Below, one piece after another: positions 1-53,825 of a stretch of 64,000 nucleotides of DNA. The position numbers and the translations under genes were made by a program. The notes below the pieces were generated by a model. It saw only the letters and a list, made by a program, of their open reading frames with translations, made no database searches and was not told the origin of the DNA. Positions within the stretch are counted from its first letter, which is position 1, and each line of letters starts with the position of its first letter. Origin of the DNA: Undaria pinnatifida (Eukaryota; Sar; Phaeophyceae; Laminariales; Alariaceae); contig JABAKD010000018.1 of the NCBI GenBank assembly GCA_012845835.1, positions 992,001-1,056,000 on the forward strand, given 5' to 3'.

Positions 1-136
1 GGCACGATACAACCTCACTCCACGTGCGATTTAAAGGTTCCCGCTGCCGATTGGTCAGGTGACTTAGTCCCGTTTGTCATCCTGATGTGTAAAGCGCGTG
101 TGTTGTGCGTTTCGTTTTCTTCTTAGACAATCGTAG
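1..136 (+). other. 3' end of an upstream intron of the Patched-like gene
   Basis: The first exon seen starts at 137 in the middle of a codon series, so earlier exons lie left of the window. A better pyrimidine tract ends at the AG at 125-126, but using it would put an in-frame stop before the exon; the AG at 135-136 keeps the frame open. Confidence 0.55.
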
Positions 137-260
137 GATTTAATGGCACAAGCAGCTGGCAACGATGGTAATCTCAACGTAGTGTACAAGACGGCCCGAT
201 CAAACGACGATGCGGTGGCGGAGAGCGTCTCGGGCGAGGTTTTCCTCTTCGTCATTACCT
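137..260 (+). CDS. Patched-like gene, exon 1: end of lumenal domain 1 and start of sterol-sensing helix
   Basis: Reads through NLNVVYKTARSNDDAVAES into SGEVFLFVIT, the usual entry into the second transmembrane helix of Patched/NPC1 proteins (a hydrophilic SxDD.. stretch followed by a helix starting with F-L-F-x-I-T). Donor is T|GTGAGT at 261. The exon ends one base into a codon, which exon 2 completes to tyrosine. The acceptor (TCGTAG) is weak and chosen because it keeps the frame open. Confidence 0.8.
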
Positions 261-3200
261 GTGAGTAGTCGAGTTACGCGAAACCGTCTGTCTCGTCAAC
301 AATCATTCGATGCCGTGATGTTAACATAAGTTTATTCTTTTTACTACCCAACCCTCTATGTTTTGCCTCTACGAGATGTGTCATGATACCAAAGGTCTTC
401 CGAAATATCAAACATAACTGTTCCAACGGGATCATCTTCGATACAAGTGATTCCTTGTGGCATGCCGTGAAAAGGGATGCACCTAGTATTTTAGGCCGTA
501 TCTCTCGGACGTGGGAAATAATTACTCGTAGTGTTGAAAAGTCGGTAATCGTGTATTTCCGAGTCCCAGGTAAGCGATAAATATTGGTACCAGGTATAGT
601 TTTTATTGCAACATGTGTTACGGAAAACCTTCAACACACGGTATGGTGCTCACATTTTTTTTTCTTGTTTGAAGTGACTCGGAGTTACTCGCGCGAGTGC
701 CACCCCTGTTCCTTCGTGTCCGTCAGTTTTCATAGTGCTGCATGAATTCGCAATGGATTGGTAAGCTGTGCTGTACTCATAATATCGCCCAAATGTCATG
801 TTCCAGCGATACACGGAGTCCCCAGTGCAAAATTCTCAAAACCGGTGGTGAACATGAGGGTGTCGCTTCTATCTCAGACCATGGCTAAGATAGGGGGGAT
901 AACCCCATTTTCACCATTGCGTTTGAGCCACTGGCACTCCCCTGACTCCCTACCTCGAGCGTCCCTTTAAAGGCATTTGAATTTACGCAGCGTCGTGGCC
1001 AAGTCTTTCCACGGTGTAGGGGCTCCACAGTTTTGGGCAAACTAACCATATGCCGTTTTTGTGCGGTTCAGCTCCTCAATTGAGGAACGACAGGTTACTT
1101 TGCATCATTCTGCAAGAGTATACGTTGTTTTCTAGGACCTAGGCAGACAAGCTTGGGTCGGGTGTTTCGAAAGAATGTTTTTTTGAAGACATTTTTTGGG
1201 TGATATGTTGAGGTAGCTCCTCATGTTAAGAGCTCAGAAAATCTTTAGGAACTGCTACACCCCTACCGTGGGATGGCCGAGATTGCCATCCCATTCCGCG
1301 GCCCTCATATGGTGGAGTTGAGGCAGTACGAAATCTTATGATCGGAATGAAACAAGGGAGTCCCACTCGCGCGAGTGAGCCCAACAACCGCTGTAAAAAA
1401 TGCCCAAAACGTGACCCACCTACCGTATCACTGGTCGAGTTTAACCCGCACGTTAACGTTCAACTCATTAAGGAGCAGGGGCGTCACTCGCGCCAGTGAC
1501 ACCGTGTCTCGGCGAAATTGGTCCCAAAACGGTTGACCGCCCACCCGTAGCCTGAGTTCCCGATATATTCAAACATTGGCAGTGAGATACAGAAACCCTC
1601 TCGACAGTGCTACGTCATACCGTGCACTAAACGACAGGCCAATCGGGATCGATCCTCGATCACTCCCCCAGCTCTGCATGAAGTCCCGGGTATGAAGGCC
1701 GGCGTACCATCTGACCCTCGCTCTCCATCGCTTGCCCCTATGCTCGGAAATATCTGTACTGCACCATCCTGCACTGGATCCTGCCGAATGAGCTATGTTT
1801 TTGGCTTTAAGATACGATCATGATTGTCTTCGTGAAGATAGCGATTGGACGTTGTTGCGCCGGACATGTGCGGCGAAGGACCTGGCTCGGGCTAAGCGGC
1901 GTGACGCTCGTTGTCAGCGCGGGCTTTGCTGCATACGGCATCAACAGTGCTTTTGGTATGGTTAACGTCACTTGCGACGGGCAACACAGCCACAATGTTT
2001 CTACGATGACATCTATCCCCCCCCCCGCCATTTATCTTTTACCTATCGACACGTTTTCAACCCACATGGTAATATGTCAAACCCCCACTTCCAATATCTT
2101 AACATCACCTTTACGATACCAACCCTGTATGAAATACCCACACACCCCTACACCAGACGAACCCCTACCTTTATGTTGTAGTTCCTCCTGATGAATTCTT
2201 ACCTTTTTCTGTATAGATTCAAACATCCCTACGCCTACCCTTCATGATGCAATACTGGCATGCGGCTTGCACATTTGTGGTCGAGGGTTAACTCCACCCA
2301 CGGTATGCCGATGATGATGAAGTCCAACTATGGTGATGGTCTCCGAGCTAGGATCGGCTGGGGTATGACATATCGGGAATAGAGCCTTAACGTAGACACA
2401 CCGCCCTCTTTTCTCGAAATGTACTGGTGGTATCAAACATCACAGGTGATAAAGGCCGTGGATATCGTATATCCTTCGTGATATAGTCTGAAATTGTGAA
2501 GAATGCAAAGCATATCAACGGCGAGATCACCTGTGGTGTCCGTTTAATACTGCGCAACAAGCAACCAGTCATACCTATTTCACTTTCTGCCGTGTGGAGT
2601 GGTCACGGGCAACGACTTATGTCAACCTTGATGTAGCATATCAGTAGCCTACGCGATATTTCAAAGGACAAATCTACGCATGACGAGTGTTAAGGGCTAC
2701 ATCATGCGTGATAATATGTATCACTACTCAATACAACGGTTGTCGTGCTTATAGAACCTCTCCACAATCGGCCAGTCACACCGTGCATTAGATCTCAGCC
2801 GTGAGGTAGTCACTGAAATTGGGCTGTACTCTCCCTGACATACTACGTCAACGGGCTATAGAACGCACGACGATGTATGCCTTCGTATATCACAAATCCG
2901 TATAACCTGTGATGTGCGAATGTCACCCCTCCATAAGAAATTACTCATCCAGCACCAAATCCCTACCGTTCAAGTGGACATCAACGTTGACATATATTAC
3001 CCGTGACATAGTGGACAAGGGGGCTTCATCACGCAAGGAATTCGGTATATCACTTGGCTATACATAACGGACGATGGGTCAAACATATCAGCGCACTACG
3101 TCACGCATTCTGGTGGTGTTAATACTCCACCAAATCCATGATGTGCCCACATTGCCGATCTATCGCATGATGTGACATATCATCCGGGATTCAATAGTTC

Positions 3201-6200
3201 CGCCGTGAGGTGGTCGCTGAAGTTTGACTCTACCACCGTTGATATGCTCGTACAACATGGTCACATGTATGGAATATGTTGGACATGTCATTTATGTATC
3301 AGAGGCCTCTATATCACCCGGTTCTGTTTTGTATTTATAATGCGTTCCAAAAATGAGCAGGATGTGACTACATCACGGCTCGATTCCCAACATGCCATAC
3401 CTCGTTCCATGTCGGCTGTGAGATCACCTTTATTGTGTGGGCTATATCACCCTGGGTACAACGTGCGTGGAGATGACCATGACCACATATCTCCAATCTG
3501 CGAGCCAGTAATGCATCAAAGTGTTTGGTGTCGGGAACGTTCGAGTCTGCGCAGGGGGGGGTTAGAAAAATACGAACAGAATCAATATGTTGCTGGACAG
3601 GTTAGGATATCTCAGGGAGGTTTCACATTCTGTACGGGAGGTGGGTATTTCGAGCGGCGGGTTGCTTTTCAAAAGGGGGGGGGGGGGCTGATATTTTGAT
3701 GTGGGCTGTAATGTTTTTTTCTAACGTTTTCCGACATGTCGCCCCCCGCGATATATAGTCTCCTTTTCGAAATATGGACATATCACAGAACTCCCCAACA
3801 TACCCTTGAATCATTCCACAAGCCCTTCACACAACGCCCCATTCCCCGCAAGTGGCGGCCACAATTTTGACTGGGGGTTTATTCATTGAAGAGGGGGTTA
3901 AAGGTTTTGATCGACAGTTGCTACATTATACAATGGAGAATAAACAAATGGTGGGGACGATAACTCAAAAATTCTTTGCGTTGCAGTGGAATGTACGTAT
4001 GCATACACCTAGACTATATATACTGTAAAAACATAGAGTGCACTCCAGCTGTGAGATCGAAGTTTCCGTAGAAACTCGTCTTTGCAGATTATGAGTGATA
4101 CTCCGATTGCGCGTACTAGTGGGGGTTTGTCCTCGTTATAGATATATGTGGTCAGCGACTTCCGGTAGAACTACGGTGTATATCGTACCCGGCTCACCAG
4201 GGCGATAAGAATCTATCTATGCGCGAAACCTATACTAGCCGTTTAATATAGGACAAAGTTTATCGGACGTAGAATAAAATATAAAAAATGAAGATACACC
4301 CCAGCTGTGAGATCGAAGATTTCGTCGAAACCCATCTTTGCGAGCTGTGTGTGATACTCCGATCGCGCGTATTTCGAGTTGTGTGTCCTCATTGAGGGTA
4401 CAGGTCGGCGACTCCCCTTACAACTACAGTGTAGCTACCAGGGTCAACAGGGTGATGTTAGTCAGTCTGTGCGCGGGAACTATTAAAACCCGTTTCTGAG
4501 GGCGACAAAATCCGACAGCTGTGAAGGGAAATGTATCCGTTTATATTGTGAATCCTGTAAGTCGAATAACCGGTGAGGGGGGGGGGGCGGAGTTTTGAAA
4601 GACGTGGGGGCCTGGTTTTGATCAAAAGCGAGCGGGGTTGGAGGGGGGGGGGGGGGGCGGGCGGGTAATTTGTGGGTGTAAGCTATAAATCCTTTCAAGG
4701 GATAATCTGACGATTTTATGGAAAAAACAGTCTATCATGGGGGGGGGGGGGGTTGGGGCGGGGGTAGGGTGTGTGGGCCAGCTCAATCTGTGCGTGGAAG
4801 CTATACATTTTTTTGAGGGGATAACTGTGACGGTTTTGGAAAGAATTCATCAGTTTATCATGTATATCCTGAGGTAAGTCGTACAATGAGTGAGTAGAGA
4901 GAGGGCGGAGTGTTCTAGGGGGTGGGGTTGGGATGGGGTGGGGGGCGGGGTTGGGGAGGTGGGGGGTGGGGGCGGGGGGGGAGGGGGAGGGGGGGGGAAG
5001 GAAGGGTTTTAGGTCAGGGGTTTGTTATAGGTATGGTGCTAGGTCTAGGCGATATTGCGGGTGGTGAGGAAGAAGGAGGCGTTCAGGCCGGGGAGGGGGA
5101 GGAGAAAGCAGCGGGATGGATGTCTCTACAAAAACAATGAAGTGATATCCAGTGCGTAAAGTGTTAAATAATGTGGCAGATTTCGATATTAGGTAGGGCG
5201 TTTGAGCAACGGAGAGCGAGAGGGGGGGGGATGGGGGGGGGGGGGGGGAGATTTTTCATGAGGTTCAGGTCGCATACGTATAACATTCAAATACACTTCG
5301 GCTGTGAGATCAAATATATGTAGGGGCTTGTTATACGCGTGGTGCTAGGTCTAGGCGATCCTGCGGGTGGTTGGAAAAGAGGGGGCGTTGGAGTTTTTTT
5401 TTTTACTCTAGCCGACTGCGATTGTGAGTAGGGCGTTCGAACAAACTAGGCGGACGGGGGGGCGGGGGATCGGTGAGAGGGGGGGGGGGGGGGGGGGAGG
5501 GGGGGGGGGTTATGAACATGAGGGGTGATGGGGAGGAGAAGGGGAGGGGGGGGAGGCGGGGGGCGGGACATTCAAATATGTGCGCGGAAACAAAAAATCC
5601 TCAAAGGGGACAAACCTGACGATTGAAGCATTAACACATCCTTTCATATCATCTGCCTGGTAATGTTTACTATTCTAGAAGGTTTGATGTCAGATGCAGT
5701 ACGCAACACAGTGTTTAGGTGTAGTAAATAACGTGATAAATCTTCTTAATTTTTTGTTGTATATGGATCGAAAGCTAGAATATGTTATAAAATATTTGTA
5801 GTTACCATTATTTTCTGACATCGCGAATTTTATGAAATAGATACGTATTGCCAAATACAACAGGCGAGGTGATGTGGTCATGCACTGTTTGTCATCACCA
5901 GCATACAGTCATCATTACTTTCTGACATCGCAAATCATGCGAAAAAATGTATCAGTTTATCATTGACTTTCAATAGGCGAACAGTCGGTGAGGGGAGGAG
6001 AATTTTACGGGGAGAGGGGCGGGTGGGGGGTAAAATAACGGGGGGGGGGGGGGACGGGGAAGGGTTCCAACAGTCTTAGTCGCGAAAATGTGTACGAGCT
6101 TACTGTACGCTCAGTTCTAGGTCCAGAGATTGGTGGAGGTGGTGCGACGGGGACAGATGGGGCAGAGGGAGTTTAATTTGAACTTGAAAACGACATAGAA

Positions 6201-9200
6201 ACTGAATAAAAAACTACCGCACATAGTTGGCGCTAAAGATGAAGATGTTATATCACCTGTCGAGTAGTGTAGATCATTTGACATATTTTGATTTTGGTTT
6301 TTAGGGGTAGGGTTAGCCAACACATATCATTTTCCTTGCGTTCTTGCTCCCGTTCCTCGGATAGGTGTAGAATTTTTCCACACGACAGCTGAACCCCTGC
6401 GTGGACTCCTGCTTTGGCGCGAAAAAGTTGAGCCGCGGGTTTTTTCTTGTGCTCCTCGCCCGATTGGTAGTTTTAATGTACCGCGCCCAAATCGACATCA
6501 GCAAATTAATGGTCTAATCATGAACCCCAATAGTTTTTGATGACTCAGGTATCCAGCCAACTTCATGGAAATACTAAGTCATATCCGACGGCAATGGTCA
6601 GTTTTGCCGTGTCAATTTCGAAATGTTTCGGCTAAGACCAAGTCCAAGACTTGGGCCATACCAGCATTTTAACGACCGAAGTGTTGGCCCTCGCGCGAAC
6701 GGCTCTGAGTAAAACTCAAATTAGAATAAAGCATTGCTCTTCTTTAAAATGCTTATTTTTTACAACGTAGCAATGATATTATTGCGGTGCTTGCCGTGCA
6801 GCCGAAATGGCTGATGCGAGGGTAGCTAGCCACCCGTGGGAGTGACTTAACGCCACTGAAACCGGAAGGCATCAAAATGACCCCCCTGTCGCAGTATATG
6901 TCCGGGGAAGTGCTACATTTTGCAAATCACCCGTCAGCATCCCTACTGCTTACATATTGATGGCCGGCTTCGTAACGTACGGCATTAACAGCACCTTCGG
7001 TATGATGCGAACGGCGGAGGCGCTTCCTAACTATAACGGCTTTCTTGAATCAAACACATCGGAACGCAGCGGGGAACGGAGGAGTTACTGGGTAACATCC
7101 TGACATTGCTGATAGCGATAAGGCAAGTATGTGTTCTACTACGGAGATCCGTTGTGAACAGGATGAAATATTGAAAAATATAAGGGAAGCATCGCCACTT
7201 CATAGGTGAGCTCTCCTGCGCTACAACTGTGATCGATAGAGGCTCTGTGTACTCGACAAGGCAAGCCAACGGAATAGACTGTAGCCAAGCGCTTTTACAC
7301 AAAGGTGGTTTTTTTTTTCCCCCTTTGTTGTTTGATAATTCATCCTGCTAACAATGGATCTCTGTAATAATTTACAAATTTCCAATATTGACCGATTTGT
7401 GTCAAAATATGGTGGTTTGAAATACCCTCAATGTAATGTGGTCGTGATGTACGCGTTTGCTCCAGCGCATCGTCTACAGCTAGGCATATGGAATCAAGCT
7501 TCGAACAGTGAGCGTGAGTCGATAGAATACATGGTTGCGGGTTTAACTTGACGTTCTGGAGGCGTCGCAATGAAGAAAGGGGAAGCACGCGGGCTCACCA
7601 AACGTTTTTGTGTGAGGGCTACTATGAATACAGACAGCCTCATGAATCATGACATCGAATGATGCTACTGATTCTGCTACCGCCAGGTACTTCGTGTACT
7701 TCGTATAATGTCCGGCCGTGTGTGTTTGACTGGTTCAGTGGAACCTAAACTGTGGCTACTGTGGCTTTATTACATGCTGCGCACCACGCACACACACGGC
7801 GACAACTGGCACAAAGGCAAGAGCTTGAAACACGGCTCTTGCGGTTGAATTGGTTCATTACGTCGCTGTTTCTCCCCTGCCGTGCAATGCTGATTTGTGA
7901 CAACGTACATGCCACGCGCACATACCTGTACATATAGAACATAAAAAAATACATTAAACACATAGGAGGTATGAGCACCGTCTGTGGCGGTCTTAAAAAG
8001 GAGAGATGTCACGGCGAGGTTGCTCTTGTACCGCGACTGCCTTGAGCGCAGAGCCTGGAGGGCCGTGCGTCATGCACCAACACAGAAGCGGCAGCAGAGA
8101 AAGAAACTCGAGTACCAAAGACCCTACTCGTATTAGTTTATGTCAATCGACCTTGCTGGTCTACATTTTTCGCAACGCGCAGCAGATCCCAGGCAGGCTG
8201 TGGGATTTTGATGATTGACATCGAGCGTTCAATTCTCACCTTCATCCAAAAATCTGCAAAATACAGCAAACGTTTTCCACGTGTCAAGAACTTGCAAACC
8301 TGACTCACCTAGTCAACACCGAGATGGACCGATGCCATCACCCGCTGCATGAAGCAATCATTATGTGTTCCCTCTCTGCGTCTGCTGCATCGCAGCTAGA
8401 TATAGCCAGCAGAAGAAACATCATCAACAGCCACTGCAGAACATGCCTAAAACACGATAAGTGTATATTTTGCTCCCAGCCCGGTGTGACACCTATCTAT
8501 ATCGAATAAACTATGTTGTGAATTTATCTTCGTTCCACATATTGGCTCCACATGTTATAAAAAATGTAATACATCCCAGCTGTTAGATCGGAGATTTTGT
8601 CGGAACTCATCTTTGCAAGCTGTGTGTGACACTCCGATCGCGCGTATCACGGGTTGTATGTCCTCATTAGGGATATAGGTCTGCAACTCCCCTTGCAAGA
8701 AAATTGTAGCTATCAAGGTCAACAGGGTGATCTTAGGCAGTCTGTGCGCCGAAACTATCAAACTCGTTTCTAATGAGAACTTATATCGACATTCTTCATC
8801 TTCTTTTCTCAAGAAACACGTCGGGGTTTTGGAGGGATTGCAGGGCTCGGAAAAACGAGGCATGCGGCAGCCCGTGCCTTGCCCTGTGGGCCTTGCTCGG
8901 TGCGAATATCACCCAGATGCGCCGCGGAGCGCAAAAGAACACGAGCAATAGTAGCTAGAGGCCAACCTCAAGTAGATGGGCGGATGGAGCTATTTGTGTC
9001 AAAGACGGGGTGTGCCACATGTTGAGTATTGGCTGCACAGCATAAACCACAGGCTAGAGTAGATGCAACAAATTCATACGATACTGGAGATATGTTGCTG
9101 CTGCCGTCGACACAGTTGGCTGTTTGCAGCCGTGTCGTTGCAGTCAGCAGGAAGGGTGAAAACCGCTGGGTTGGCGTTAAACAGCAAGGGGCGAGATATC

Positions 9201-39200: not shown

Positions 39201-42200
39201 GAAGCTTGGTCGGGTCGCGCATTATAACGACGTCGAAAATGCATTGCGTCAAGTGAGATATTGAGCTCCTCATGTTAGGAGCTCAGACCATTTCTGCTGC
39301 GCCCCTGCCGTGGGTTGAGGTATGTTTGGAGCCCAACGATTTCTGGCCGGTTAAGTTCTTCATGTAAAGAACTACCGGGGTGTCACTCTAGAGATGTTGC
39401 GACTGAAATTTGTTTGAGGACAAAGGCGTAGTAGCGTTATGTCGGATTGGGGCGAACAAAGGCTTTCGACGTCATGATTAGAGTGGGTGTGCGAGGACTT
39501 CACGTTAGGAGTAAGCAGCTTTTATCTTCACCCCTTCCGTGGGATGGCTCCGCACCACTTAAAACCGAGCTAGACGTCGTCAGTAAAACGTTCTCAGCGG
39601 CTGCTATCACAGGAGCTAAGCGGCGCGCCAAGCAAATGTCTAATCTTACGGCACGTTCATTTAGAACCCCGGACCCGAGATGCACACAAGGAGAGCAAAG
39701 CGTTTGATCCGCGGCGCCTCGTGTGAGCACGAACGTATAGCGTGCGTTTTTGTATGAGACTTCGAGTAAGTCGGCGATGCTGTGTTTCAGGATGGCATGG
39801 CCCCCACATCGATCCGTGGCGGTGCGCTATCAATATATGAAGATCGCAGTTAATCTACTCAGCCGATGCGATTATATCTCGCCACCAATACCGTTCTGAT
39901 ATCTGCATTATTTACAACGCCAGCGCGGAGGTGCTTTGCTTCCTGACACCGATGTTTATCCTGTCACAACGCTCCCCCCCGTAAAATGTCAATGCGCAAC
40001 GTGAGGATCGAGAACAAGGACCGTATCACCAAATGGTTACATGAAACTTTGAGTACCCCAGGAAAAGGCACAAAGACAGGGAAACTACATCATATTTCAC
40101 AAGCAGTACAAAACTGCCAACGGAATTGGCGCTCAGCTTCCGACAAGGTCCCGCCTTCGTTTTTGCTCATTGCTGTGCTGCTTGTTTCTGATCGTCCTCA
40201 GAGTTGGTTATGGCCGTTGGGCTGGTAGTGGACTACATGGTCCACATCGTCCACTACATTCTTCACCAGGTATTGTATTTATGCGGCAACAGTTGAGGTA
40301 GGTTCGGATAAAATCGAAACCCGTACTCTACCACGATTTATTTACTCAACCACCCTCAACACCTCATAATCCGCCTCGAACGTGGGAGGACATACTTCTA
40401 CACATCGTACACTCTTTCCTGGATCAGGAGCTACGCGCATCATTTCTTGCGCAGTTACTTAAACATATCAAAACACAGTTGCAATGCATCTCTGGTGTTA
40501 TATTTCCAACCTCCTGCTTTGCCCGGCTACTACATAAGTTTGTTTCACTTGTTTTGGGAACCCTCATCGGCGTTGTCTTCCGAGCCAATGGCAGGTTGGC
40601 TGCAGGAATTATGTTTTATAGATTTCGACGACACCTCCCCAAAGTTCGCGATGCAGTAGGTCCGGCAGACCATACCAACCCCTTACCAAAGAAGAACCTA
40701 CAATTAAATATATGTGTCGTGGAATGACGCCCATACGTGTGTGCAGTCACCCTGCCGTTGGCTAATTCCCCCGCGAAAAGATTCGCACAATAATAGGCGT
40801 GACAAGTTTCAGCTATATATACAATATAGTTGTGAATGGTGGAGTATAAAAAAATGAAAACTGGGAAAGGCGATAAATCTCGTTTTTAGTTGATCGGTTG
40901 AGGTACGCAACATCATCAACGAATCGTATTTCGGGACAACTGAAATTTGAATATACGGAAAAATGTATACACGTGAAGGACAATACTTAGAGGAAAACCA
41001 CGTTCAAATTGGGACATTTTTCAACTTCATGTGGCATGTTTACGGCGCGTCGAAGGCTACAGCAGGGTGGGCATTCCCATCGTTTCTACTGGGTTTGAGT
41101 CACTCGCACGACCTCAACGACCAAATACTCTAGGTAGTGAGCTTGTTGCAGTGTAGCTTACCGTTTTTTTGCAGATTGATATCGCTAGTTTTTATCCAAC
41201 CCGAAATCTCATAACAACAACAGAGGACGGGGGTTAGTCCCTCGAGAAACCCGGAGCTACGAACAAAAGGAGGCCGTTGACGTGACCCCCTACCGAAACC
41301 TGGACCTGCGGCAGCCTGGCGTGTTTTTCACGAAATCGACGACCACGGTTGATGCGATAAAACGCGAACATCAAAGAAAGGCGACCAGATAAATAGCCGC
41401 GCCCACGTAGGCCTACAAGAGATACATCATCGGACTCCGGTGGTAGCGCCACAAGGAAATCATGGCGGCCGCTATGCCAATTTTCCAACGGATAGCTTTG
41501 CCAAGCACCAAGAGACGCATGATACGTTAGAGGTGCACCACATTTCTTCTCGACCGAGGAAGTCTATAGCTCGTCCACAACCGGACTTCGAAGAAACAAA
41601 AGAGGGCCACACCCCATGAAGAGACACATGGGCTTAGTATACGAAAGCACATTGCACTCGAAGCGCGAGAACAAAAGGGTTTCATGTGTTTGGAAAAAGT
41701 TTAGCGCTTTTTTCCGTTGACCAATGCGATCAACGCGGTTAGTTTCTTGTACTTGTACTGGCATAGCACGATAAAACTTCAATCAATCTACCTGGTCGCT
41801 GACACGCAAGTGAAGCACGCAGAGAAGCATCGTCAGAGAGACAGGTTCATGTCGCGATGTAGACTGGTTGAATTTGGTGCTGCTGTGAATTGTTGTGACT
41901 GCTGGTGTGATCGAGTACAACTGCGATTGCTTCTGTGAGATTTTCCTGTGGCAGCTGTTGTTAACTCCGTGGGCCAAATTCCCGACGATGGGTAATTCGC
42001 CGGATGCCGCGGCTCGCGGCACCACAAGCGATAAGGCGGAGGCTGCTCTGCGAGTCCCCGCCACCGCAGCTCTTCCTTGCTATGGATTTGCCTCCAGGGC
42101 GCCAGCGGTCGGTGCGTCTCGGACATCGACTGAGAGTGCCAAGTCGACTCGGCAAGGTGAGATGAATTACGCGGGTTCAATGATTGTTTCGATGACAATA

Positions 42201-45200
42201 TGGCCGTGACCAGTGCTTGAATCGGTTTCTTTCTCACGGGAGGTAGCGATTGCCCGTGCTGACCAGGGCTCCAACTTCGACCTGTTCCTCCGCCAGTTCG
42301 CCAAGAACAACTTTGGTCCGGCGGCTGCCTTAAGCGATGACGGTTACGCTCAAGAGAGGCAGTAGCAAAAAGCTCAACTGACCGATGCCATGATTACGTG
42401 GAAGAAGGTCGACACTTGTAGAATGCTGTGGGTTGTTTGGGGGCGTATCCCCCCACACCTCGGGGACTCCCCTTCTAACCAGCAGTCGTTTGTGATGAAG
42501 GTCATCCACGTACCGGCTAATGTGGTTCTCCAGCCACGTTCTTTGAGCTTCTTTGACATCGGGGCGAATGGGTCCCACGTAGACGGACCGGTCTGACACT
42601 CCTTTATGGTCTCCGAACGCCCCGGCCTCTTTGGATTGGCCGTCGTCTGCATAACTATGGTAGGGCTCTTGCTCGGGCTCGACAACGATCTCCCATGTCC
42701 GGTTTGAGTAAACACTCTTGGTGAAGCGTTCATGGTGGCGATCCCGTGCCTGCGCGTTCACACCTTCAGTGGCTACAGTCTGCTGTCGATCTTAAAAGCG
42801 CATGACGTGCTGTTCGAGATGGTCAACGCCAGATCGGCTGTTGGGTGAGCGAGCGCAAGCGCGCTGCACAGCATTCGTTCCCTTTTGTCGCCCCTCCCCG
42901 TGCTGGTACGGGTTTTGACTTCCCACCCATGCGTAAGCTTGTGCGTGCTCTTGAAATTCGTCGGGAGTCGGGCGGAATTGGTCAGGCTCGTGCTCAGCAG
43001 TACGTGTGGCGCTGAGAGACAGCACCCCCAAACGGAAGGCCGCCGCTCCCTTTGATGAGCTGGATCGCCTGGGACCAAAGGAAGAACCAATTCGAGCGCC
43101 CCCCTTGGTCTGCCGGATGTTCGCGTGCACTGGTCAACGCAATTTTTTCCTGGCACATCACTACATGCATCCCCCGCTGACTCGGCAGCCACGTCATCTC
43201 TATCCAATCACAGAGGCGGTGGCATGGCAAATCTAGGCTGGCGGGCGAAGAGTTGCGGGCGTTGTCGTTGCGTGCGGACATCCCTGCAGAGAGCAACGGC
43301 GGGGGGAACAGATGTGGCGAAGCCGGGTTTGGATCTAAACACGATCCCTGGTGTGAGGTGGGACCAACCATTGGGGGCGCAGCTGCAGCGCTGGCAGTGC
43401 GGGGGTGCGATGCGTCGACAATCGCGCTAAGTCAAAGAGGCTTTGCGGGGACGTGTGTTGGAGCCCGTTGGACTCAGCACTCGTTGAAAAAGTTGACGAA
43501 TCGGTCGCATGCCTTGATACAGGTATCCCCAGCAAACGTGTGCGAGGTTCAGTTTGAAACTTGGGGTGCAGAGACACCACGACCAACGCCGAACGCGCGC
43601 GCGCCCGATTGGATGCGGCAGTGGTGGTGTTGTGCGTTGCCGATGCGTGCTACGACAGCGGTGAACCACGTTTTCGTTGTGTTTCCTGACTGTTAAGAGC
43701 GTGAAATGTTCCCCAAAACTGTTTTGGACGAAACTTTATTCTGTATAGGATGAAACCCTTATGGCATAGGTATACAACACGGAATCATTCAAACAGAATA
43801 ACTAATTTCCGGCGATTTTAGGTTTAGGAGCCCCGTCATTCGTAACCCACTTTTGACGATTAGAGATACCTCTATCGTAGCACGCCCCCGCGCAGAATAG
43901 CGTAGCGCGCTCGGTATCATCAACAGGTTCCGCGAATCTCGATCAGGTGGACAGCGTGGGGTCATCTCGTCTTCGTTCCTGTCACGGAAGTGTTGAGCAT
44001 TGTACGTCTTCTGTCGGAACCTTACGCCTCGCTGCAAATATCAATCCTCAAATCGTGCGTCATTGGTTTATTAAAGTTAAGAATACCCCCGGTGTTGATC
44101 GGGTGATTCGTGTTCTGATACCGGAGTTCCCGGTGTGCGTTGCGGGGGGACGAAAACCGAATGGTGAGCTTGCATACGGCAACGACCCGAGCGTCGCCCC
44201 TCATGCCCTTGTTGCTGACCTATCAAATATTTGCTGGCGTTTTACACACGCGGGCCTTGGGGTTTGCATTGAATTCCGCGTCTGGTATCCAACGTGTACG
44301 TGTTTCGCCTTTATCGTTCGTTCTGAACCCTATGTTCCGCATAAGTCACGATCTCACGTTTGCGTGCACGCGACTAGTCCAGCTTTTACGACGATACAGA
44401 TTTTTTCCCCGCCCCCACCTGCGATCTCGGTCATTTCTTCATAATGGTTTTTTAGGGGTGTGTTTTTTCGCGGGAGAAGCACGGTCCGACCGATAGAATT
44501 GTCCATTGCAGTATTGACGTGAAAAACGCCCATCGACCAGTCTTAGTTAATCCGGTGGAGGCGCCGATGTTTGGGAACGCAATAGGTGGCTACGTAGTGG
44601 TTGTAGATTTTCGATTGCAATTCGGGCGACGTACTAGCGCTGGTTTCTGGAGGTTGATGACGTTAAAGATGGGACACGCCTACACCCACTCTACATTTCT
44701 AGACGCGGCCGTTTCACCTCAAGGGGTTGTCATCGTCACGCATGTGCGGCTTTCTCCGCCGCAGGGGGGGTCGGTTGGGTCTCTCCCTCCTGATTGTAGG
44801 CTCGTTTCCAAGAGCGGCTACGCCGAGAGTTGTTTGTTGATGCGGTACTACGTGGACGGCGGCATTCTTATCGACATGAAGCGTTGGGCGGACGCCCGTC
44901 GCTGTATGCGGGCCGGGCAGTCGTTGGAGTCGGACAACTCGCGATTGTTTGGCACACGTGGCGCTCCCGATCCTCCTCTGTCCACCAGCAGAAGCACTAA
45001 TTGACACGCGTGTCTCGAAATGTTGAGCTGGTTAGTCGGCCAAGAGACGCTTCCAGTGACGTCGCCGCGACACAAGAGCGTCAAGCTCTGATCGCTTCTA
45101 GCAGAGTGCCACCCGTCGAACATATGTGCTTCCGCTGAGCCGGTGTCACAGCTCGCGGGTTTCCTAGTGCACATCTCGATTGCCGTTCGTCCCGAGGCTT

Positions 45201-48200: not shown

Positions 48201-49187
48201 TACGTTAGATTACAATTTTTGAAGGTTTGCTTTGCCCAGAATGTAGACATCATTTTTGGGGGAAATCTAACTCAAACAAAGAGGGGGCACATCGATCACA
48301 AGACTACAGTATAGGAGAAACGCTTTGCACGGTAATGGGGGACGCGTTTCCGCTACAATGATTTCCGAATGAGAGAGGTCTCCAATTTCGTATGTATGTC
48401 GTAAAATTGTCCTGCAGTATTTCGTGCTTGCTTTCCGTCCCGGCCCAAAGGTTCGTGCGTATCTGGCTTGATTTCCAATTTTGTCAGACCCAGTTCCACG
48501 TGCCCACAAGGTAAAAGAGCACCTCAATTTTGACGCCTCATAACAGAGTAGGGGCAATTATTCCGAAGAATGTGGCGGGGGTTCCATCTCTTCATCATTA
48601 GGGTGGGCGCTGCCAACTTCCTGTCCTAGCAAAAGAGTCAGACCCGATTCGGCGTTTGTCTATACCGAATTTGGAAAATATACCTGACCGAACTGCGGTG
48701 ATTACTCACAGCCAGATATATTACGTCTGTTCACATCGCGAAACCAATATGGACAACCAGGTGCGTATCCAAATGATCCCCCTACGATGTCAGAAGTGGT
48801 CCCCGGCTAGAGAACCTGGGCGACACCGGTGACGGAAGTGCCTGCGTCCATCTCTGCTGCAAACGTTGCTACCTCTGCTGGCGGGGTATATTTCGAGTTC
48901 AAAGTGCCCGGGGTGTATGTTTACCTCAGGAACACCAACAATGAAGAACGTGTACAAATTGATTAATTTTCGCCTAATAATTCCATGTCCTATCCGCCGC
49001 TTGCCGCAAACATTAGGACGCGGGCACCACTAAAGACATGCGCATAGCAAACGCCCTGGGGGAAATCGGTCCTTCCGTCATGATGGGCGTAGCTACGACA
49101 TTCCTGGGCATCATGCCGATGGCCTTCGCCCACAACGTGATCTTCCGAGTGTTTTTCAAGATGTTCCTCGTTATCATCAGCTTTGGG
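137..49187 (+). CDS. Patched/NPC1-like RND transporter with sterol-sensing domain, 16 exons seen, both ends missing
   Basis: Host gene spread over 49 kb. Exons at 137-260, 1812-1955, 12066-12133, 12994-13090, 16203-16318, 18922-19023, 21182-21290, 25169-25226, 26830-26930, 31726-31838, 33335-33476, 35441-35587, 36918-37037, 38531-38603, 40202-40269 and 49017-49187. Each is bounded by AG and by GT (or GC twice), and codon phase agrees at every join except the one before 21182. Translated in order they follow the Patched/NPC1 plan: sterol-sensing helices with GIDVDDM, a cytoplasmic linker, the first helix of half two, a lumenal domain, then the C-terminal bundle with GLVVDYMVH. The acidic pairs sit where RND proteins have their ion-relay residues. 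Family members move sterols or other lipids across or within membranes; the substrate here is unknown. About 584 codons are seen. The N-terminal helix, the first lumenal domain and the last helix are missing from the window or not found. Family call is firm; NPC1 versus Patched versus Dispatched is not settled. Confidence 0.85.
261..1811 (+). other. Intron 1 with palindromic repeats
   Basis: About 1.55 kb. It contains three copies of the palindrome CACTCGCGCGAGTG or close variants (near 684, 1362 and 1481), a second palindrome AGCTCCTCAATTGAGGA near 1069 and a related AGCTCCTCATGTTAAGAGCT near 1215. No reading frame here resembles a protein I recognise. Confidence 0.55.
1812..1955 (+). CDS. 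Patched-like gene, exon 2: sterol-sensing helices 2-3
   Basis: Acceptor TTTAAG at 1806-1811. Two bases finish the tyrosine codon begun in exon 1, then TIMIVFVKIAIG (helix 2), a basic cytoplasmic turn HVRRRTW, and WLGLSGVTLVVSAGFAAYG (helix 3). In the family this position reads L-G-x-x-G-V-x-x-V. Ends in A-F plus the first base of a glycine codon; donor GTATGG at 1956. A GT five bases later (1961) would put exon 3 out of frame. Confidence 0.88.
2400..3620 (+). repeat. Degenerate repeats rich in TATCAC/GTGATAT words
   Basis: The words TATCAC, GTGATAT and ACGTCA recur many times. Longer similar stretches start at about 2797 (GCCGTGAGGTAGTCACTGAA), 3203 (GCCGTGAGGTGGTCGCTGAA) and 3413 (GGCTGTGAGATCACC). 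The last resembles the head of the CAGCTGTGAGATCG repeats at 4.0-4.5 kb, so this may be an older, decayed part of the same array. Unit borders cannot be set by eye. Confidence 0.35.
4028..4260 (+). repeat. CAGCTGTGAGATCG repeat, copy 1
   Basis: Begins near CACTCCAGCTGTGAGATCG, then a shared body: GAAACTCGTCTTTGC, TGATACTCCGATTGCGCGTA, a TGTCCTCGTTATAG stretch, and a tail ending near TGCGCGAAACCTATACTAG. Copy 2 starts about 265 bp further on in the same direction. No coding potential seen. Confidence 0.65.
4293..4500 (+). repeat. CAGCTGTGAGATCG repeat, copy 2
   Basis: Same order of blocks as copy 1, with the tail GTCTGTGCGCGGGAACTAT and CCCGTTTCTGAGG clearly visible. It is the best preserved unit beside the copy at 8567. 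Its tail leads directly into the G-rich sequence that follows. Confidence 0.7.
4500..6100 (+). repeat. G-rich tandem array with long poly-G runs
   Basis: A recurring unit contains CTGTGCGTGGAAGCTAT, a GGGGATAA..CTGACG stretch, AAATGTATCAGTTTATCAT, a TCCTGTAAGTCG stretch, then a run of 8 to 18 G on the + strand (for example near 4576, 4642, 4739, 4940-5000, 5220-5250, 5460-5515, 6040). Part of the repeat head recurs near 5290. The runs are unusually long and always on the same strand, with many sites able to form G-quadruplexes. Predicted proteins here (Gly/Arg-rich) are composition artefacts. Confidence 0.7.
6101..8566. other. Intron 2 stretch with no recognised feature
   Basis: No exon-like frame and no family repeat seen on either strand. 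At about 6960-7000 a short run reads like the helix-3 region of the host gene (AGFVTYGINSTFGM), resembling the end of exon 2. It has no matching splice frame and may be a decayed partial duplicate of that exon. Confidence 0.4.
8567..8776 (+). repeat. CAGCTGTGAGATCG repeat, copy 3
   Basis: Full-length copy (about 210 bp) in the same direction as those at 4.0-4.5 kb: ATCCCAGCTGTTAGATCGG, TCGGAACTCATCTTTGC, ACTCCGATCGCGCGTATC, TGTCCTCATTAGGG, TCAACAGGGTGATCTTAGG, GTCTGTGCGCCGAAACTAT. It stands alone, so the family is dispersed as well as tandem. Confidence 0.7.
9646..11410. repeat. Minisatellite of near-palindromic CTTCCACGAAAGCTTCC units
   Basis: Roughly 1.7 kb of a 10-14 bp degenerate unit. 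In the left part (9646-10060) the + strand mostly reads CTTCCACGAAAGC; in the right part (10565-11410) it often reads CTTCCGTGAAAGC, close to the reverse complement. AAGCTT recurs many times. Because units are near-palindromic, several frames on both strands stay open for up to 200 codons (rich in S, T, F, H, G, E). These are by-products, not genes. The stretch 10300-10560 is less regular. Confidence 0.8.
11411..12065 (+). other. 3' end of intron 2
   Basis: No repeat family recognised. A frame running from about 11684 through exon 3 to 12160 is open by chance; only its last part (from 12066) fits the host protein. The acceptor is GTCGCAG at 12059-12065. Confidence 0.5.
12066..12133 (+). CDS. 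Patched-like gene, exon 3: sterol-sensing signature helix
   Basis: Two bases complete a glycine begun in exon 2, then ISFTSLAQ and ILPFILIGIDVDDM. This is the diagnostic helix-4 motif of Patched/NPC1 sterol-sensing domains (LPFxxxGIGVDDMF); the paired aspartates are the RND ion-relay position. Acceptor GTCGCAG, donor GTGGGC at 12134, ends on a codon boundary. Confidence 0.9.
12134..12993 (+). other. Intron 3
   Basis: 860 bp with ordinary composition. No repeat family or other gene recognised. Confidence 0.5.
12994..13090 (+). CDS. Patched-like gene, exon 4: loop after helix 4
   Basis: Reads FVIVAAFDKTDPSL, then a conserved cytoplasmic segment VEDRVALGLKRCGASVT. In Patched/NPC1 proteins the same place has an E-R-x-G-x-A-L-x-x-x-G-x-S-[IV]-T pattern leading to helix 5. 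Acceptor CCGCCAG, donor T|GTGAGA at 13091. It ends one base into a codon that exon 5 completes to tyrosine. Confidence 0.9.
13091..16202 (+). other. Intron 4
   Basis: 3.1 kb. It holds a truncated CAGCTGTGAGATCG repeat at 13418-13545 and a degenerate palindrome (TTACCCGCCCGAATGA) near 14940. The rest shows no gene or repeat I can name. Confidence 0.5.
13418..13545 (+). repeat. CAGCTGTGAGATCG repeat, copy 4 (truncated)
   Basis: Head and middle of the unit only: CACTCCAGCTGTGAGG, GCGAAACTCATCTTTGCC, CTACTCCGACCGCGCGTATT, GTCCTCAATGACG. The tail with GTCTGTGCGCGAAAC is absent. Confidence 0.6.
16203..16318 (+). CDS. Patched-like gene, exon 5: sterol-sensing helices 5-6, GC donor
   Basis: Acceptor GACGTTTAG. 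After the split tyrosine it reads SLTNMFAFILGSTSSLPALE, then FCFYAATAIFFDFLLQ. This matches the family pattern TSLTNFxAFxxGxxxxxPALxxFCxYAAxA. The exon must end at CAG (16316-16318) for exon 6 to join in frame, and the next bases are GCATGT, so the intron starts with GC rather than GT. Confidence 0.9.
17063..17303 (-). mobile_element. MITE of the GTTCTACGATAGCC family
   Basis: About 241 bp, reversed relative to the 37.5 and 49.9 kb copies. The right end reads GGCTATCGTAGAACGACTC. The inside carries the reverse of the family core (TATTTCAGGAGACACGGC, TTTGATTCAAAACCGACGA). The left end (GAAAGAATCAACGATATCC) is a weak match. No coding capacity. Confidence 0.55.
17483..17508. repeat. TA dinucleotide repeat
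   Basis: An uninterrupted AT/TA run of about 26 bp. A shorter TA run lies at about 24355-24371. Confidence 0.9.
18922..19023 (+). CDS. Patched-like gene, exon 6: end of helix 6 and start of cytoplasmic linker
   Basis: VTAFVALLTMDANRQK, then RIDWCCCFKSENFMEQ. In the family the sixth helix ends in F-V-A-x-L-x-x-D-x-x-R, followed by a cytoplasmic linker that often begins with a cysteine-containing stretch. Acceptor GGGACAG at 18915-18921, donor CAG|GTGGGG at 19024, 34 whole codons. The CCC cluster at the membrane edge could be a lipidation site; that is a guess. Confidence 0.88.
19024..21181 (+). other. Intron between exons 6 and 7, probably hiding a linker exon
   Basis: Exon 6 ends on a codon boundary, while the natural start of exon 7 (21182) is one base out of phase. 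Either a small exon with length 3n+2 lies here, or exon 7 starts earlier, at 20997, after GCTGCCAG. Also present: a palindromic repeat near 19742 with a tail to 19945, a fragment of the GTTCTACGATAGCC family at about 19990-20075 and a full copy at 20538-20788. Confidence 0.5.
20538..20788 (+). mobile_element. MITE of the GTTCTACGATAGCC family
   Basis: About 251 bp. The left end GAGTCGTTCTACGATAGAC and the right end GGCTATGGAAAAACTAGTC are inverted matches. The internal core GAAATCGATCGTTTGGAAAC then CGCTCCCGGACGAATC is shared with the 37.5 and 49.9 kb copies. Non-coding. Confidence 0.65.
21182..21290 (+). CDS. Patched-like gene, exon 7: first helix of the second half
   Basis: FMKGAYASFIL then GKALVLLGTAGLLAAGIYG and ATQ. 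This is the canonical start of the second repeat in NPC1/Patched proteins (F-x-x-x-Y-A-x-x-L-x-x-x-x-x-K-x-x-V, ending in Y-G-x-x-Q). Donor CAG|GTGCAA at 21291, ends on a codon boundary. Starts after CTACTTCAG; starts at 21146 or 20997 are also possible, and only 20997 joins exon 6 directly in frame. Confidence 0.85.
21856..22116 (+). repeat. Palindrome-bearing interspersed repeat
   Basis: Starts near GCTACAGCAAGGGGGTACCC and includes one decayed (AGTCGCGCCAGTGACT, 21897) and one good palindrome (GTCACTCGCGCGAGTTAC, 22042). It ends near CAACATAACCCCCATACTGT, a tail also found at 14395. Borders are estimated from the 24.2 and 47.1 kb copies. Confidence 0.45.
23722..23920 (-). mobile_element. 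Degraded MITE of the GTGCTACGATAGAGGT family
   Basis: Reversed relative to the 33.9 kb copy. It starts GACGAACGCTACGGTAGATG, contains CCAAAATCGTCGGAAAAT and a CCATGGGATTCCTCATCCGG block in the order expected for the reverse strand, and ends near AGGTCTTGAGCTAGCAC. The right end is worn. Confidence 0.45.
24208..24479 (+). repeat. Palindrome-bearing interspersed repeat, best palindrome
   Basis: From GATACGGTAGGGGGTACCC to ATTGTACCGTGCC; the ends are roughly inverted (ACGGTA at left, TACCGT at right). It contains a perfect 24-bp palindrome at 24403-24426 whose centre is GTCACTCGCGCGAGTGAC, plus a GGCGCAACGTAGCTAACC word also found at 16506. About 270 bp, no coding capacity. It looks like a non-autonomous element. 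Confidence 0.55.
25169..25226 (+). CDS. Patched-like gene, exon 8: start of second lumenal domain (58 nt)
   Basis: VKEGFDFLDLAPDDHHARD plus one base. In the family the second lumenal domain starts with L-x-D-x-x-P-x-D-S-Y shortly after helix 7, which fits FLDLAPDD. Acceptor ATGCTCAG, donor T|GTGAGT at 25227. The split codon becomes tyrosine with exon 9. It is very short, but both neighbours fit in phase. Confidence 0.8.
25684..25960. mobile_element. Two pieces of the GTGCTACGATAGAGGT MITE family, head to head
   Basis: The left piece starts GGGCTACGATAGAAGTGCAC and runs + to about 25880 with the family body (GGGAGCTCAAGACCT, ATGGGGCCTAGGTACAC, CCGACGATTTGG). At 25881 ACGCGTGAAACGATAGAGGT opens a second piece reading in the - direction (TAGCATTTTTG, TTTTCTGAATGAC). 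This suggests a later insertion or an internal inversion. Confidence 0.5.
26105..26464 (+). repeat. Tandem duplication, period 177 bp, two units
   Basis: Two near-identical units begin CGATTCGCCTCTC (26110 and 26287), run through AGCACACGGCAGAACCCC and GGCATGAGTCCAGTTACAC, and end GAACGTGTGGCGCGTGAT. A small number of differences suggests a fairly recent duplication. No function seen. Confidence 0.9.
26830..26930 (+). CDS. Patched-like gene, exon 9: second lumenal domain
   Basis: After the split tyrosine: ANV, then ARRYELEIDTHYVQLNIHTE and DIDYRNISVQ. Acceptor is a pyrimidine-rich stretch ending GACAACAG at 26829; donor CAG|GTAAGT, a perfect consensus, at 26931. The frame is open further upstream, but only the 26830 start fits the phase of exon 8. 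Sequence in this part of the family is variable, so the call leans on frame and order. Confidence 0.82.
27366..27619 (+). mobile_element. MITE of the GTGCTACGATAGAGGT family
   Basis: About 254 bp. Left end GACGCGCGTTGCGACAAAAC, then GTGCACCACG; right end GCTGCCTCCATCGTAGCACG. Body blocks (AATTTGGGAAATTACTAAG, CCATAGCCCAAGGTATA, TTTCGGTTAAGGAGC, AACCATTTCAGACG) match the other copies in order. Confidence 0.65.
27750..28462. mobile_element. Inverted-repeat transposon rich in CCAGTCGAAA words, carrying a foreign insert
   Basis: The left end (27764-27798, TACTGTCGGATTCGACAGTC then GAAAACGGC) and right end (28416-28451, GCCGGTTTCGACTGG then CGTAATCCGACTG) are inverted copies of each other, and similarity extends a few bases outside. 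Many internal copies of CCAGTCGAAA and TTTTCGACTG occur in both directions near each end. Between them lies unrelated sequence with an 82-codon frame (28078-28326). About 0.7 kb and without a transposase, so non-autonomous, in the manner of Pack-type elements. Confidence 0.65.
28078..28326 (+). CDS. Captured reading frame resembling a signal/plastid presequence (82 aa)
   Basis: Starts MLAWISLLLLVAASQRGAFL, a short N-region, a strongly hydrophobic core, then GAFL. In stramenopile plastid proteins a signal peptide ends in an A-x-A-F motif followed by a Ser/Arg-rich transit stretch; here the sequence after GAFLVRSPA is basic and rich in R, P, S and T. It lies wholly inside the inverted-repeat transposon, so it is probably a captured first exon of a host gene. 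Whether it is expressed is unknown; it could also be open by chance. Confidence 0.4.
   Translation: MLAWISLLLLVAASQRGAFLVRSPAACIPRRHQRGTPILSANPKTTNSLGRGFVEPWLAEKARSTEISTAVQTAVLPHTNRL
28924..29010 (+). mobile_element. 3' fragment of a GTGCTACGATAGAGGT MITE
   Basis: Only the right end is clear: TTTGGACTATGGATTCCCGT, then GCTGCCTCCATCGTAGCGCA. No matching left end was found upstream. A similar worn right end sits at about 29690-29762 (GGGTTAAAGAGCCCCGTCAT then ATTAGCATTCGTC). Confidence 0.45.
30125..30467. repeat. Minisatellite of GATGTTATGAT units
   Basis: About 340 bp of irregular GATGTTAT/GATGATGTT units, with scattered variants (GATGTTGTCAT, GATGTTTTGAT). A/T-rich and not coding. Confidence 0.85.
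30540..30700 (+). repeat. Palindrome-bearing interspersed repeat (part)
   Basis: GCGCAGCGTCGCCAAG and a CATTGGGGTTGTACAACG word precede GGCGGCAAGGAAACGGGG and the palindrome CACTCGCGCGAGTG at about 30653. The same word order is seen near 22030 and 24395. Confidence 0.5.
31726..31838 (+). CDS. Patched-like gene, exon 10: second lumenal domain
   Basis: AQIQATDAMMIGGQYVV then GPVTSWLTSFVEWANNNTEY and two bases of a serine codon. A segment of this type (P-x-x-S-W-x-x-x-F-x-x-W) is typical of the second lumenal domain of protist Patched-like proteins. Acceptor CATTGTCAG at 31725, donor AG|GTGCGC at 31839. Confidence 0.87.
31839..33334 (+). other. Intron 10, nothing recognised
   Basis: 1.5 kb without a clear repeat family or gene. 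The open frame 32146-32466 has no recognisable features. Confidence 0.5.
33335..33476 (+). CDS. Patched-like gene, exon 11: second lumenal domain, GC donor
   Basis: One base completes serine, then VNVRTSGAYLVYSDPTTFYP, ALTNFTHDEDNVRFLAD and IVFNDDGEIE. The F-Y-x-x-L-x-x-F block followed by D-I-x-F-N-D-D-G-x-I is a strong family hallmark just ahead of the C-terminal bundle. Acceptor GCTACCAG at 33334. The frame of exon 12 requires an end at GAG (33476), followed by GCAAGT: a consensus-like GC donor. Using the GT at 33481 would break the frame. Confidence 0.88.
33477..35440 (+). other. Intron 11 (GC-AG)
   Basis: 2.0 kb. It contains a well-preserved MITE (33862-34116), the palindrome words GAGGAGCTCGAGGAAC (34446) and CACTCGCGCGAGTG (about 34873), and a weaker CACTCGTGCGAGT (35023). 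Confidence 0.6.
33862..34116 (+). mobile_element. Intact-looking MITE of the GTGCTACGATAGAGGT family
   Basis: 255 bp. The left end GACGCGTGCTACGATTGAGG and the right end CCTCTATTGTAGCACGCGTC are inverted matches (19 of 21 over the full ends). Flanking GGGT on both sides is a likely 4-bp target duplication. Body blocks in order: TCCGGGAGCTTAAGAC, CCATGGCCTACGAGGTACAC, TTTCCGACGATTTTCGG, AAGGAGCCCCGTCACTC. No coding capacity, so it must depend on an enzyme supplied elsewhere. Confidence 0.85.
35441..35587 (+). CDS. Patched-like gene, exon 12: end of second lumenal domain
   Basis: ISRSGMFLVGVTSTQKYIDT, then LLDVRDVVGQ and a hydrophobic FSYVFLFVEM. In the family a D-x-x-R-x-x-V segment is followed by F-x-Y-x-F-x-F-x-E-Q, the lead-in to helix 8. 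Acceptor CCGACGACAG at 35440, donor ATG|GTACGG at 35588, 49 whole codons. Confidence 0.88.
35588..36917 (+). other. Intron 12, nothing recognised
   Basis: 1.3 kb. A leucine- and cysteine-rich open frame (36330-36701) looks membrane-like by composition, but it does not fit the family at this place and exons 12 and 13 join directly in phase. Confidence 0.5.
36918..37037 (+). CDS. Patched-like gene, exon 13: helix 8 and start of helix 9
   Basis: FLVVYKELLLNFFLALVAVI, then VLSFLVLGKPVVVIIVSLTV. Forty whole codons; the hydrophobic run with a GKP turn is the standard helix 8-9 pair after the second lumenal domain. Acceptor GATGACAG at 36917, donor GTAAGC at 37038. Confidence 0.9.
37110..37360 (+). 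mobile_element. Intact-looking MITE of the GTGCTACGATAGAGGT family
   Basis: 251 bp, 73 bp after the exon 13 donor. Left end GACGGGTTCTACGATAGAGA, right end GTCTATCGTAGCACGCGTC. TGTT flanks both sides as a 4-bp target duplication. Body blocks match the 33.9 kb copy (GCATTCGGGAGCTTAGGACC, ACCGACGATTTGG, AAAAGCCCC). Confidence 0.82.
37503..37761 (+). mobile_element. MITE of the GTTCTACGATAGCC family
   Basis: About 259 bp. Left end GAGAATCGTCTTACGGTATT followed by a C run; right end a G run, then GGCTATCGCAGAATCGGTC. Core: GCGAAATCGCCGGTTTTGAA, then CATCCGGCCGAATCTCCTG. Shares its core and both ends with the copy at 49875. Confidence 0.7.
38531..38603 (+). CDS. Patched-like gene, exon 14: helix 9-10
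   Basis: AIIDVDLLGFVYHWGLEING then ITVV and one base. The pattern D-V-x-L-x-x-x-x-x-W-G-L-x-[IV]-N-x-[IV]-[ST] is a hallmark of the C-terminal half of NPC1/Patched proteins. Acceptor GCTGTCAAG at 38530 and donor G|GTTATG at 38604 are both weak. They are chosen because the split codon then gives E, making E-L-V-M-A-V-G with exon 15, as usual in the family. Confidence 0.8.
38604..40201 (+). other. Intron 14 with palindromic words
   Basis: 1.6 kb. Words of the palindromic repeat family occur (GTGCTCCTCATGTTAAAGG near 38848, GAGCTCCTCATGTTAGGAGC near 39262, AGTTCTTCATGTAAAGAACT near 39354). No gene seen. Confidence 0.5.
40202..40269 (+). CDS. Patched-like gene, exon 15: helix 10 with second acidic motif
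   Basis: LVMAVGLVVDYMVHIVHYIL plus HQ. This is the second-half counterpart of the GxxxDD motif: A-V-G-L-x-V-D-Y, followed by H-I-x-H, among the most conserved parts of the family. Acceptor from a pyrimidine-rich stretch ending TCCTCAG at 40201; donor CAG|GTATTG at 40270. Confidence 0.92.
40596..43306 (+). repeat. Near-identical duplicated block, copy 1
   Basis: Begins TTGGCTGCAGGAATTATG and matches 61291-64000 base for base, with about ten substitutions and one 1-bp length change (about 99.6% identity). The right border is unknown because copy 2 meets the window end. It includes a decayed palindrome (near 41096), the start of a MITE (GACGCATGATACGTTAGAGG, near 41514) and the left part of the DIRS-like fossil. 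Sequence left of 40596 is unrelated to that left of 61291. Confidence 0.97.
43642..43888 (+). mobile_element. MITE of the GTGCTACGATAGAGGT family inside the DIRS-like fossil
   Basis: About 247 bp: left end GATGCGTGCTACGACAGCGG, right end ACCTCTATCGTAGCACGC. The body has TTTCCGGCGATTTTAGG and GGAGCCCCGTCATTC. It sits between the gag-like part and the reverse transcriptase part, so it inserted after the retroelement did. It lies outside the part of the duplication visible in copy 2. Confidence 0.75.
47071..47338 (+). repeat. Palindrome-bearing interspersed repeat
   Basis: About 268 bp, from AGCTACGGTAAGGGGGTGAC to GGGTACCCACCGTACGGTAG; the ends are rough inverted matches. Contains the palindrome variant CACTCGTGCGAGTG near 47125 and GACAATGGAATGATAAGCTA then CGCTGCGCC, which recurs in other copies. 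Confidence 0.55.
47640..47720 (+). mobile_element. 3' fragment of a GTGCTACGATAGAGGT MITE
   Basis: Right-end blocks only: GATTTCGGGTTGAGGTGCCC, then ACATCTATCGTATCAC. No left end found. Confidence 0.4.
49017..49187 (+). CDS. Patched-like gene, exon 16: helices 11-12
   Basis: DAGTTKDMRIANALGEIGPS, then VMMGVATTFLGIMPMAFAHN and VIFRVFFKMFLVIISFG. The pattern R-x-x-x-A-L-x-x-x-G-P-S-V-x-x-G, then T-T-F-L-[GA], then F-x-x-F-F-K-M-F, is a family signature for the last two helices. Acceptor AACATTAG at 49016, donor GGG|GTCAGT at 49188, 57 whole codons. The next exon should carry a short H-x-x-x-x-L-P-V-x-L segment and the tail; it was not found. Confidence 0.92.
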
Positions 49188-53518: not shown

Positions 53519-53564
53519 GGACGATGACGATAATGATGAAGATGATGATGATGATGATGATGAA

Positions 53565-53619
<55 letters not shown>

Positions 53620-53825
53620 ATGATTATGATGACTGATTATGATGATGACAATGATGAAGAAGATGATGACGATAACGATGATGACGAAGATGATGATAAT
53701 GATGATGATGATCATCACCATCATGGTGATGATGGTGATAATGATGACGATGGAGATGGTGAGGATTGCAGTTATCCTGATATGTATGATGATGATGATC
53801 ATGATGACAATGATGATGAACACAA
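53519..53825. repeat. ATG/GAT trinucleotide microsatellite
   Basis: About 300 bp: a pure ATG run in the first part (about 53520-53625), then GAT/GAC/AAT variants. Frames through it give poly-Met, poly-Asp or poly-Ile/His strings on both strands; these are not genes. Confidence 0.95.

Follow-up and report, generated by a model that had tools for sequence, protein, structure and literature searches.

The locus raises the question of whether short, exon-sized pieces scattered over some 51 kb of repeat-bearing DNA belong to a single gene and, if so, to which protein family. In the preliminary description of the window (the whole 64-kb stretch of DNA analysed here), sixteen such pieces were noted between positions 137 and 49187 and read as part of a gene for an RND-type sterol/lipid transporter. 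Our own exons E1–E16, counted without a hypothetical small exon, are likewise sixteen and have the identical span. The observation was confirmed, with corrections, and its interpretation as a putative transporter gene is supported by the sequence comparisons given below. We consider it very probable that the window carries the 3′ half of a nuclear eukaryotic gene for an NPC1/Patched-type RND membrane protein. The assignment to a eukaryote follows from the spliced exon structure together with a Ty3/gypsy-type element in the window, and the host is probably a stramenopile alga.

Exon structure and reading frame

Joining 17 well-supported exons on the + strand with a further small one that is hypothetical (E6b) yields an open frame of 613 amino acids that ends at a stop codon. 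E1 is the first exon inside the window, with the 5′ half of the gene located upstream of it. The exons, with the evidence for each in brackets, are as follows.

E1, 137–260, + strand: end of the first lumenal domain and start of TM2 (frame, splice sites, NPC1 alignment)
E2, 1812–1955, + strand: sterol-sensing domain (frame, splice sites, Pfam match of the joined protein)
E3, 12066–12133, + strand: sterol-sensing domain, TM4 motif GIDVDD (frame and splice sites; unspliced ORF, PF02460, E = 0.012)
E4, 12994–13090, + strand: sterol-sensing domain (unspliced ORF, PF12349, E = 0.0037)
E5, 16203–16318, + strand: sterol-sensing domain, GC donor (unspliced ORF, PF12349, E = 1.2e-10)
E6, 18922–19023, + strand: end of the sterol-sensing domain and cytosolic linker (unspliced ORF, PF12349, E = 4.7e-6)
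E6b, 20368–20387, + strand: hypothetical small exon, picked because it restores the frame (acceptor uncertain: 20326, 20350, 20368 or 20371)
E7, 21182–21290, + strand: TM7 region (unspliced ORF, TIGR00918, E = 4e-4)
E8, 25169–25226, + strand: start of the second lumenal domain (PTCH1 alignment)
E9, 26830–26930, + strand: second lumenal domain (PTCH1 alignment)
E10, 31726–31838, + strand: second lumenal domain (frame, GC3 0.84; aligned solely at the margins of longer matches)
E11, 33335–33476, + strand: second lumenal domain, GC donor (frame, GC3 0.90)
E12, 35441–35587, + strand: end of the second lumenal domain (NPC1 and PTCH1 alignment)
E13, 36918–37037, + strand: C-terminal bundle (alignment of the joined C-terminal part)
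E14, 38531–38603, + strand: C-terminal bundle (alignment of the joined C-terminal part)
E15, 40202–40269, + strand: TM10 motif GLVVDY (alignment of the joined C-terminal part)
E16, 49017–49187, + strand: C-terminal bundle (unspliced ORF, TIGR00917, E = 2e-7)
E17, 51108–51176, + strand: last helix and TGA stop (aligns with the end of NPC1)

The end at 49187 given in the preliminary description is one exon short, as the terminal exon with its stop codon is found at 51108–51176. Ten exons (E1, E4, E7, E9–E14 and E16) were among the 23 + strand stretches returned by a GC3-weighted scan, and the seven others were found by means of reading frames and known family motifs. Since homology and phase jointly guided the choice of splice sites, the agreement in phase is not an independent proof of the model.

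Donors of the 17 introns are GT in 15 cases and GC in two (after E5 and E11), several of them being weak, and an alternative GT donor lies 12 nt downstream of the GC donor chosen for E11. With E6b left out, the frame is broken once, at E6/E7, and this is also the only junction among E1–E16 that is out of phase, which agrees with the 14 of 15 in-phase joins counted earlier. The mismatch may be due to a missed small exon or to another acceptor. The donor of E6b after position 20387 reads CAA/GTAAGT, and the exon restores the phase from E6 to E7. The E6–E7 interval holds 101 phase-compatible stretches, and the four with a GTRAGT donor share this same donor and differ in their acceptors. Splicing to an acceptor within the first few bases of E7 (..ATGAAG/GGGG) was also considered; it keeps the phase, but drops the residues F-M-K, which align with F-F-K of NPC1. 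In the same intron region, positions 20028–20219 display a coding-like bias on both strands, and the − strand reading is without a Pfam match.

Relationship to NPC1 and Patched

The joined protein matches the Pfam Sterol-sensing family (PF12349) with 152.5 bits (cut-off, 22.3; E = 1e-44) over model positions 2–152 of 153, and the Patched family (PF02460) with 105.3 bits (cut-off, 23; E = 3.5e-30). The match to ACR_tran (20 bits) is below the cut-off of 28, and bacterial RND pumps appear among the PDB matches, too. The family placement made earlier was borne out by a comparison of the joined translation with NPC1, Patched and Dispatched: among solved structures, NPC1 (E = 3.8e-58) and PTCH1 (E = 6.1e-56) match strongly and collinearly, whereas the best DISP1 match is far weaker (E = 4.4e-9), and Dispatched was thus rejected. 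The NCBIfam models TIGR00917 (NPC1) and TIGR00918 (Patched) gave 268.3 and 207.6 bits, respectively, for about half a protein in each case, against full-length cut-offs of 1016.5 and 1120.4 bits.

The alignment with NPC1 consists of two collinear blocks, one extending from the sterol-sensing domain (SSD) as far as the beginning of the second lumenal domain, the other covering the C-terminal bundle. Taken by parts, the SSD scores almost equally with NPC1L1 (4.4e-29), NPC1 (6.5e-29) and PTCH1 (6.9e-27); TM7 and the beginning of the second lumenal domain match PTCH1 best (1.8e-8; Toxoplasma NCR1, 0.17; NPC1L1, 0.3); and the C-terminal bundle is closer to NPC1 (7.4e-24) than to PTCH1 (1.2e-12). 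E10–E11 (approximately amino acids 314–398) align only as extensions of longer matches, at the edges of those to NPC1L1 (to amino acid 345), Toxoplasma NCR1 (from amino acid 360) and TIGR00917 (to amino acid 375). Of the domains read by the preliminary description, the sterol-sensing half, the C-terminal bundle and the beginning of the second lumenal domain stand, and the part of the latter encoded by E10–E11 is seen in such extensions only.

The gene product shares with NPC1 (3jd8, 6uox; TIGR00917) the SSD, the position of the second lumenal domain and the C-terminal bundle, and NPC1 has the best score both over the whole joined protein and over its C-terminal part. With PTCH1 (TIGR00918), it shares an SSD nearly as close as that of NPC1 as well as the closest TM7 and start of the second lumenal domain, the region in which NPC1 scores less well; the match of PTCH1 to the C-terminal bundle is weaker than that of NPC1. 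Acidic residues in TM4 and TM10 are a criterion of the NPC1/Patched superfamily, and Hedgehog binding is the mark of Patched proper. The TM4 motif GIDVDD aligns with AVGVDN of NPC1, giving D-D here and D-N in NPC1, and the TM10 motif GLVVDY aligns with GISVEF, giving D here and E in NPC1. Of the two RND half-repeats typical of the superfamily, each with a large lumenal domain, the second lies in the window and most of the first would be upstream, where a counterpart of the NPC1 N-terminal domain would also fall. Judged by these comparisons, the predicted protein is of the NPC1/Patched type and is assigned to neither NPC1 nor Patched, as the N-terminal domain that decides between them would lie upstream.

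The 3′ half of the gene would encode the sterol-sensing domain, the second lumenal domain and the C-terminal six-helix bundle. By homology, the two six-helix bundles of the protein would form an ion-coupled conduit for sterols or lipids, with coupling possibly provided by the acidic residues of GIDVDD in TM4 and GLVVDY in TM10. The protein may move or sense sterols or other lipids, both the transport activity and the substrate being predicted from its homologs.

This is an ordinary sort of gene from a known family, with several such genes in Phytophthora and Ectocarpus. In the stramenopile Phytophthora sojae, four proteins with SSD and Patched domains (SCP1–4) are described, three with an NPC1-N domain and one, the Patched-like PsPTL, without it (PMC8530017). 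The same source gives one intron for PsPTL, whereas 16 or 17 were counted here over roughly half of the gene. Nine Ectocarpus genes with Patched and SSD domains are reported to be abundant in gametes (PMC3879662). Both the Phytophthora and the Ectocarpus genes are likened to the present one by the description of their domains, not by sequence.

As a special case of the NPC1/Patched-type gene, the locus might be the cholesterol-transporter/Patched-domain gene of the brown-algal female (U) sex-determining region (U-SDR), stretched by repeats in a non-recombining region. All U-SDRs are reported to contain a cholesterol transporter gene (PMC12592211), and a U-specific gene with a Patched domain has been described from Scytosiphon (PMC11461277). 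The Ectocarpus V-SDR outside the centromere is given as 2.85% coding (PMC12592211), to be compared with about 1.84 kb of this gene's exons in the 64-kb window. However, the nine Ectocarpus genes (PMC3879662) make an autosomal copy likelier beforehand, and SDR genes are reported to have a reduced GC3 (PMC5463336), which is 0.726 here, a value read without an autosomal baseline. Female linkage is regarded as improbable.

Introns, repeats and integrity of the gene

Without E6b, exons make up 3.57% of positions 137–51176, in keeping with the figure of more than 96% intron put forward before. With E6b included, the 17 introns range from 794 to 10110 bp and total 49198 bp (mean, 2894 bp; median, 1603 bp). 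For the kelp Saccharina japonica, mean intron lengths of 1057 bp (2015; PMC4421812) and 1816 bp (2025 assembly; PMC11836290) are reported. The gene is long, yet not outlandish by kelp intron length.

The 64-kb window is repeat-bearing, with a G–C content of 44–56% in 2-kb steps, and searches of the window for tRNA genes and, at the gathering threshold, for Rfam families returned none. A Ty3/gypsy-type retroelement, spread over several ORFs, occupies 55839–61392 on the − strand; its reverse transcriptase and both integrase domains (zinc-binding and core) score above the Pfam cut-offs, and gag below. Positions 40596–43306 and 61291–64000 are 99.6% identical over 2711 bp, lie 20.7 kb apart and have the same orientation. 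The left copy is located within the E15–E16 intron, with its left edge matching the gag region within the right copy, and the right copy runs to the end of the window. The duplication reflects either a recent pair of insertions or an artefact of assembly. It was also considered whether the two copies are the LTRs of one element containing E16 and E17; between 42901 and 49000, the five bases preceding the left copy turn up again behind CA at just two places, 46918 and 46973, which is not convincing.

Other repeats include degenerate tandem arrays with units of 12 and 27 bp, overlapped by long ORFs of either strand (9648–11391), an 11-bp unit repeated about 30 times (30125–30456), two tandem copies of a 178-bp unit with 93% matches just upstream of E9 (26109–26469), and a long GAT microsatellite that gives rise to spurious ORFs on both strands (53523–53819).

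A decaying pseudogene, with its exons still legible, its expression lost and repeats breaking it up, would likewise have long introns bearing repeats, several weak donors and a junction, E6/E7, that works only if a small exon is postulated or a different acceptor is used. Against this, the 18 joined exons contain no in-frame stop save the terminal one, GC3 is 0.62–0.90 in every exon (0.726 in the joined frame vs. an intron G–C content of 0.479), and the TM4 and TM10 motifs are intact; a pseudogene is considered very unlikely. For an intact NPC1/Patched-type gene, the repeat-laden introns would be removed by ordinary splicing.

Coherence of the exons

Unspliced stop-to-stop ORFs are independent of the choice of splice sites. 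Eleven of them (E2–E7 and E12–E16) were submitted to the profile search, while those of E1, E6b, E8, E9, E10, E11 and E17 were left out. Six of the eleven (E3, E4, E5, E6, E7 and E16) match NPC1/Patched models, and within each model the matched positions rise along the gene, so that the pieces, as the preliminary description had supposed, point to one protein family in gene order. Only E5 and E6, both in Pfam, scored above curated cut-offs. The other five submitted ORFs (E2, E12, E13, E14 and E15) gave no NPC1/Patched match, and what E2 did match was weak and unrelated (E = 0.04 and 0.08). In a tblastn search with two NPC1 stretches, E5 (38.5 bits), E16 (38.1 bits) and E6 (36.6 bits) exceeded the best score of 30 shuffled windows (27.3 bits), i.e., three out of 17 exons, and E1, E3 and E17 (19.6–20.4 bits) were within the noise.

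The contrast in G–C content between codon positions 3 and 2 is 0.363 for the 18 exons, compared with null maxima of 0.117 and 0.108 (0/2000 each). Because GC3 had helped to pick the other ten exons, the seven that were unlisted by the scan provide the fair test of codon bias, and their contrast of 0.297 was reached by none of 2000 random spliceable sets (maximum, 0.205).

A partial composite of 322 amino acids with gaps matched no Pfam family at E ≤ 1, and its best match in the PDB set had E = 0.018; the full join scores E = 1e-44 and 3.5e-30 in Pfam, where the composite scored nothing. A Pfam scan of two of the three forward frames of positions 1–14998, with stops read as X, yielded no families, and ten further ORFs compared with Pfam gave a match only for the one holding E3. 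Searches of viral and prokaryotic contig collections produced 3 and 23 pattern matches to the joined protein, respectively, none of them confirmed; such a search from a single protein reaches close relatives only, and E6b, itself hypothetical, supplied one of the six peptide patterns used.

That open pieces picked by eye resemble a transporter merely by chance is hardly credible: they were partly picked by known family motifs, and 113–750 open spliceable readings exist per exon length, but unspliced ORFs score alone and in order, the codon-bias control on exons not selected by codon bias stands at 0/2000, and joining the exons gives E = 1e-44.

The value of the NPC1/Patched-type assignment lies in a corrected model, reconstructed purely from the sequence, of an easily missed gene with less than 4% exon in 51 kb. 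If the locus were, after all, the female-linked U-SDR gene, it would be the sole such gene reported in all U-SDRs and, as such, a candidate femaleness factor that may act via sterol/lipid transport.
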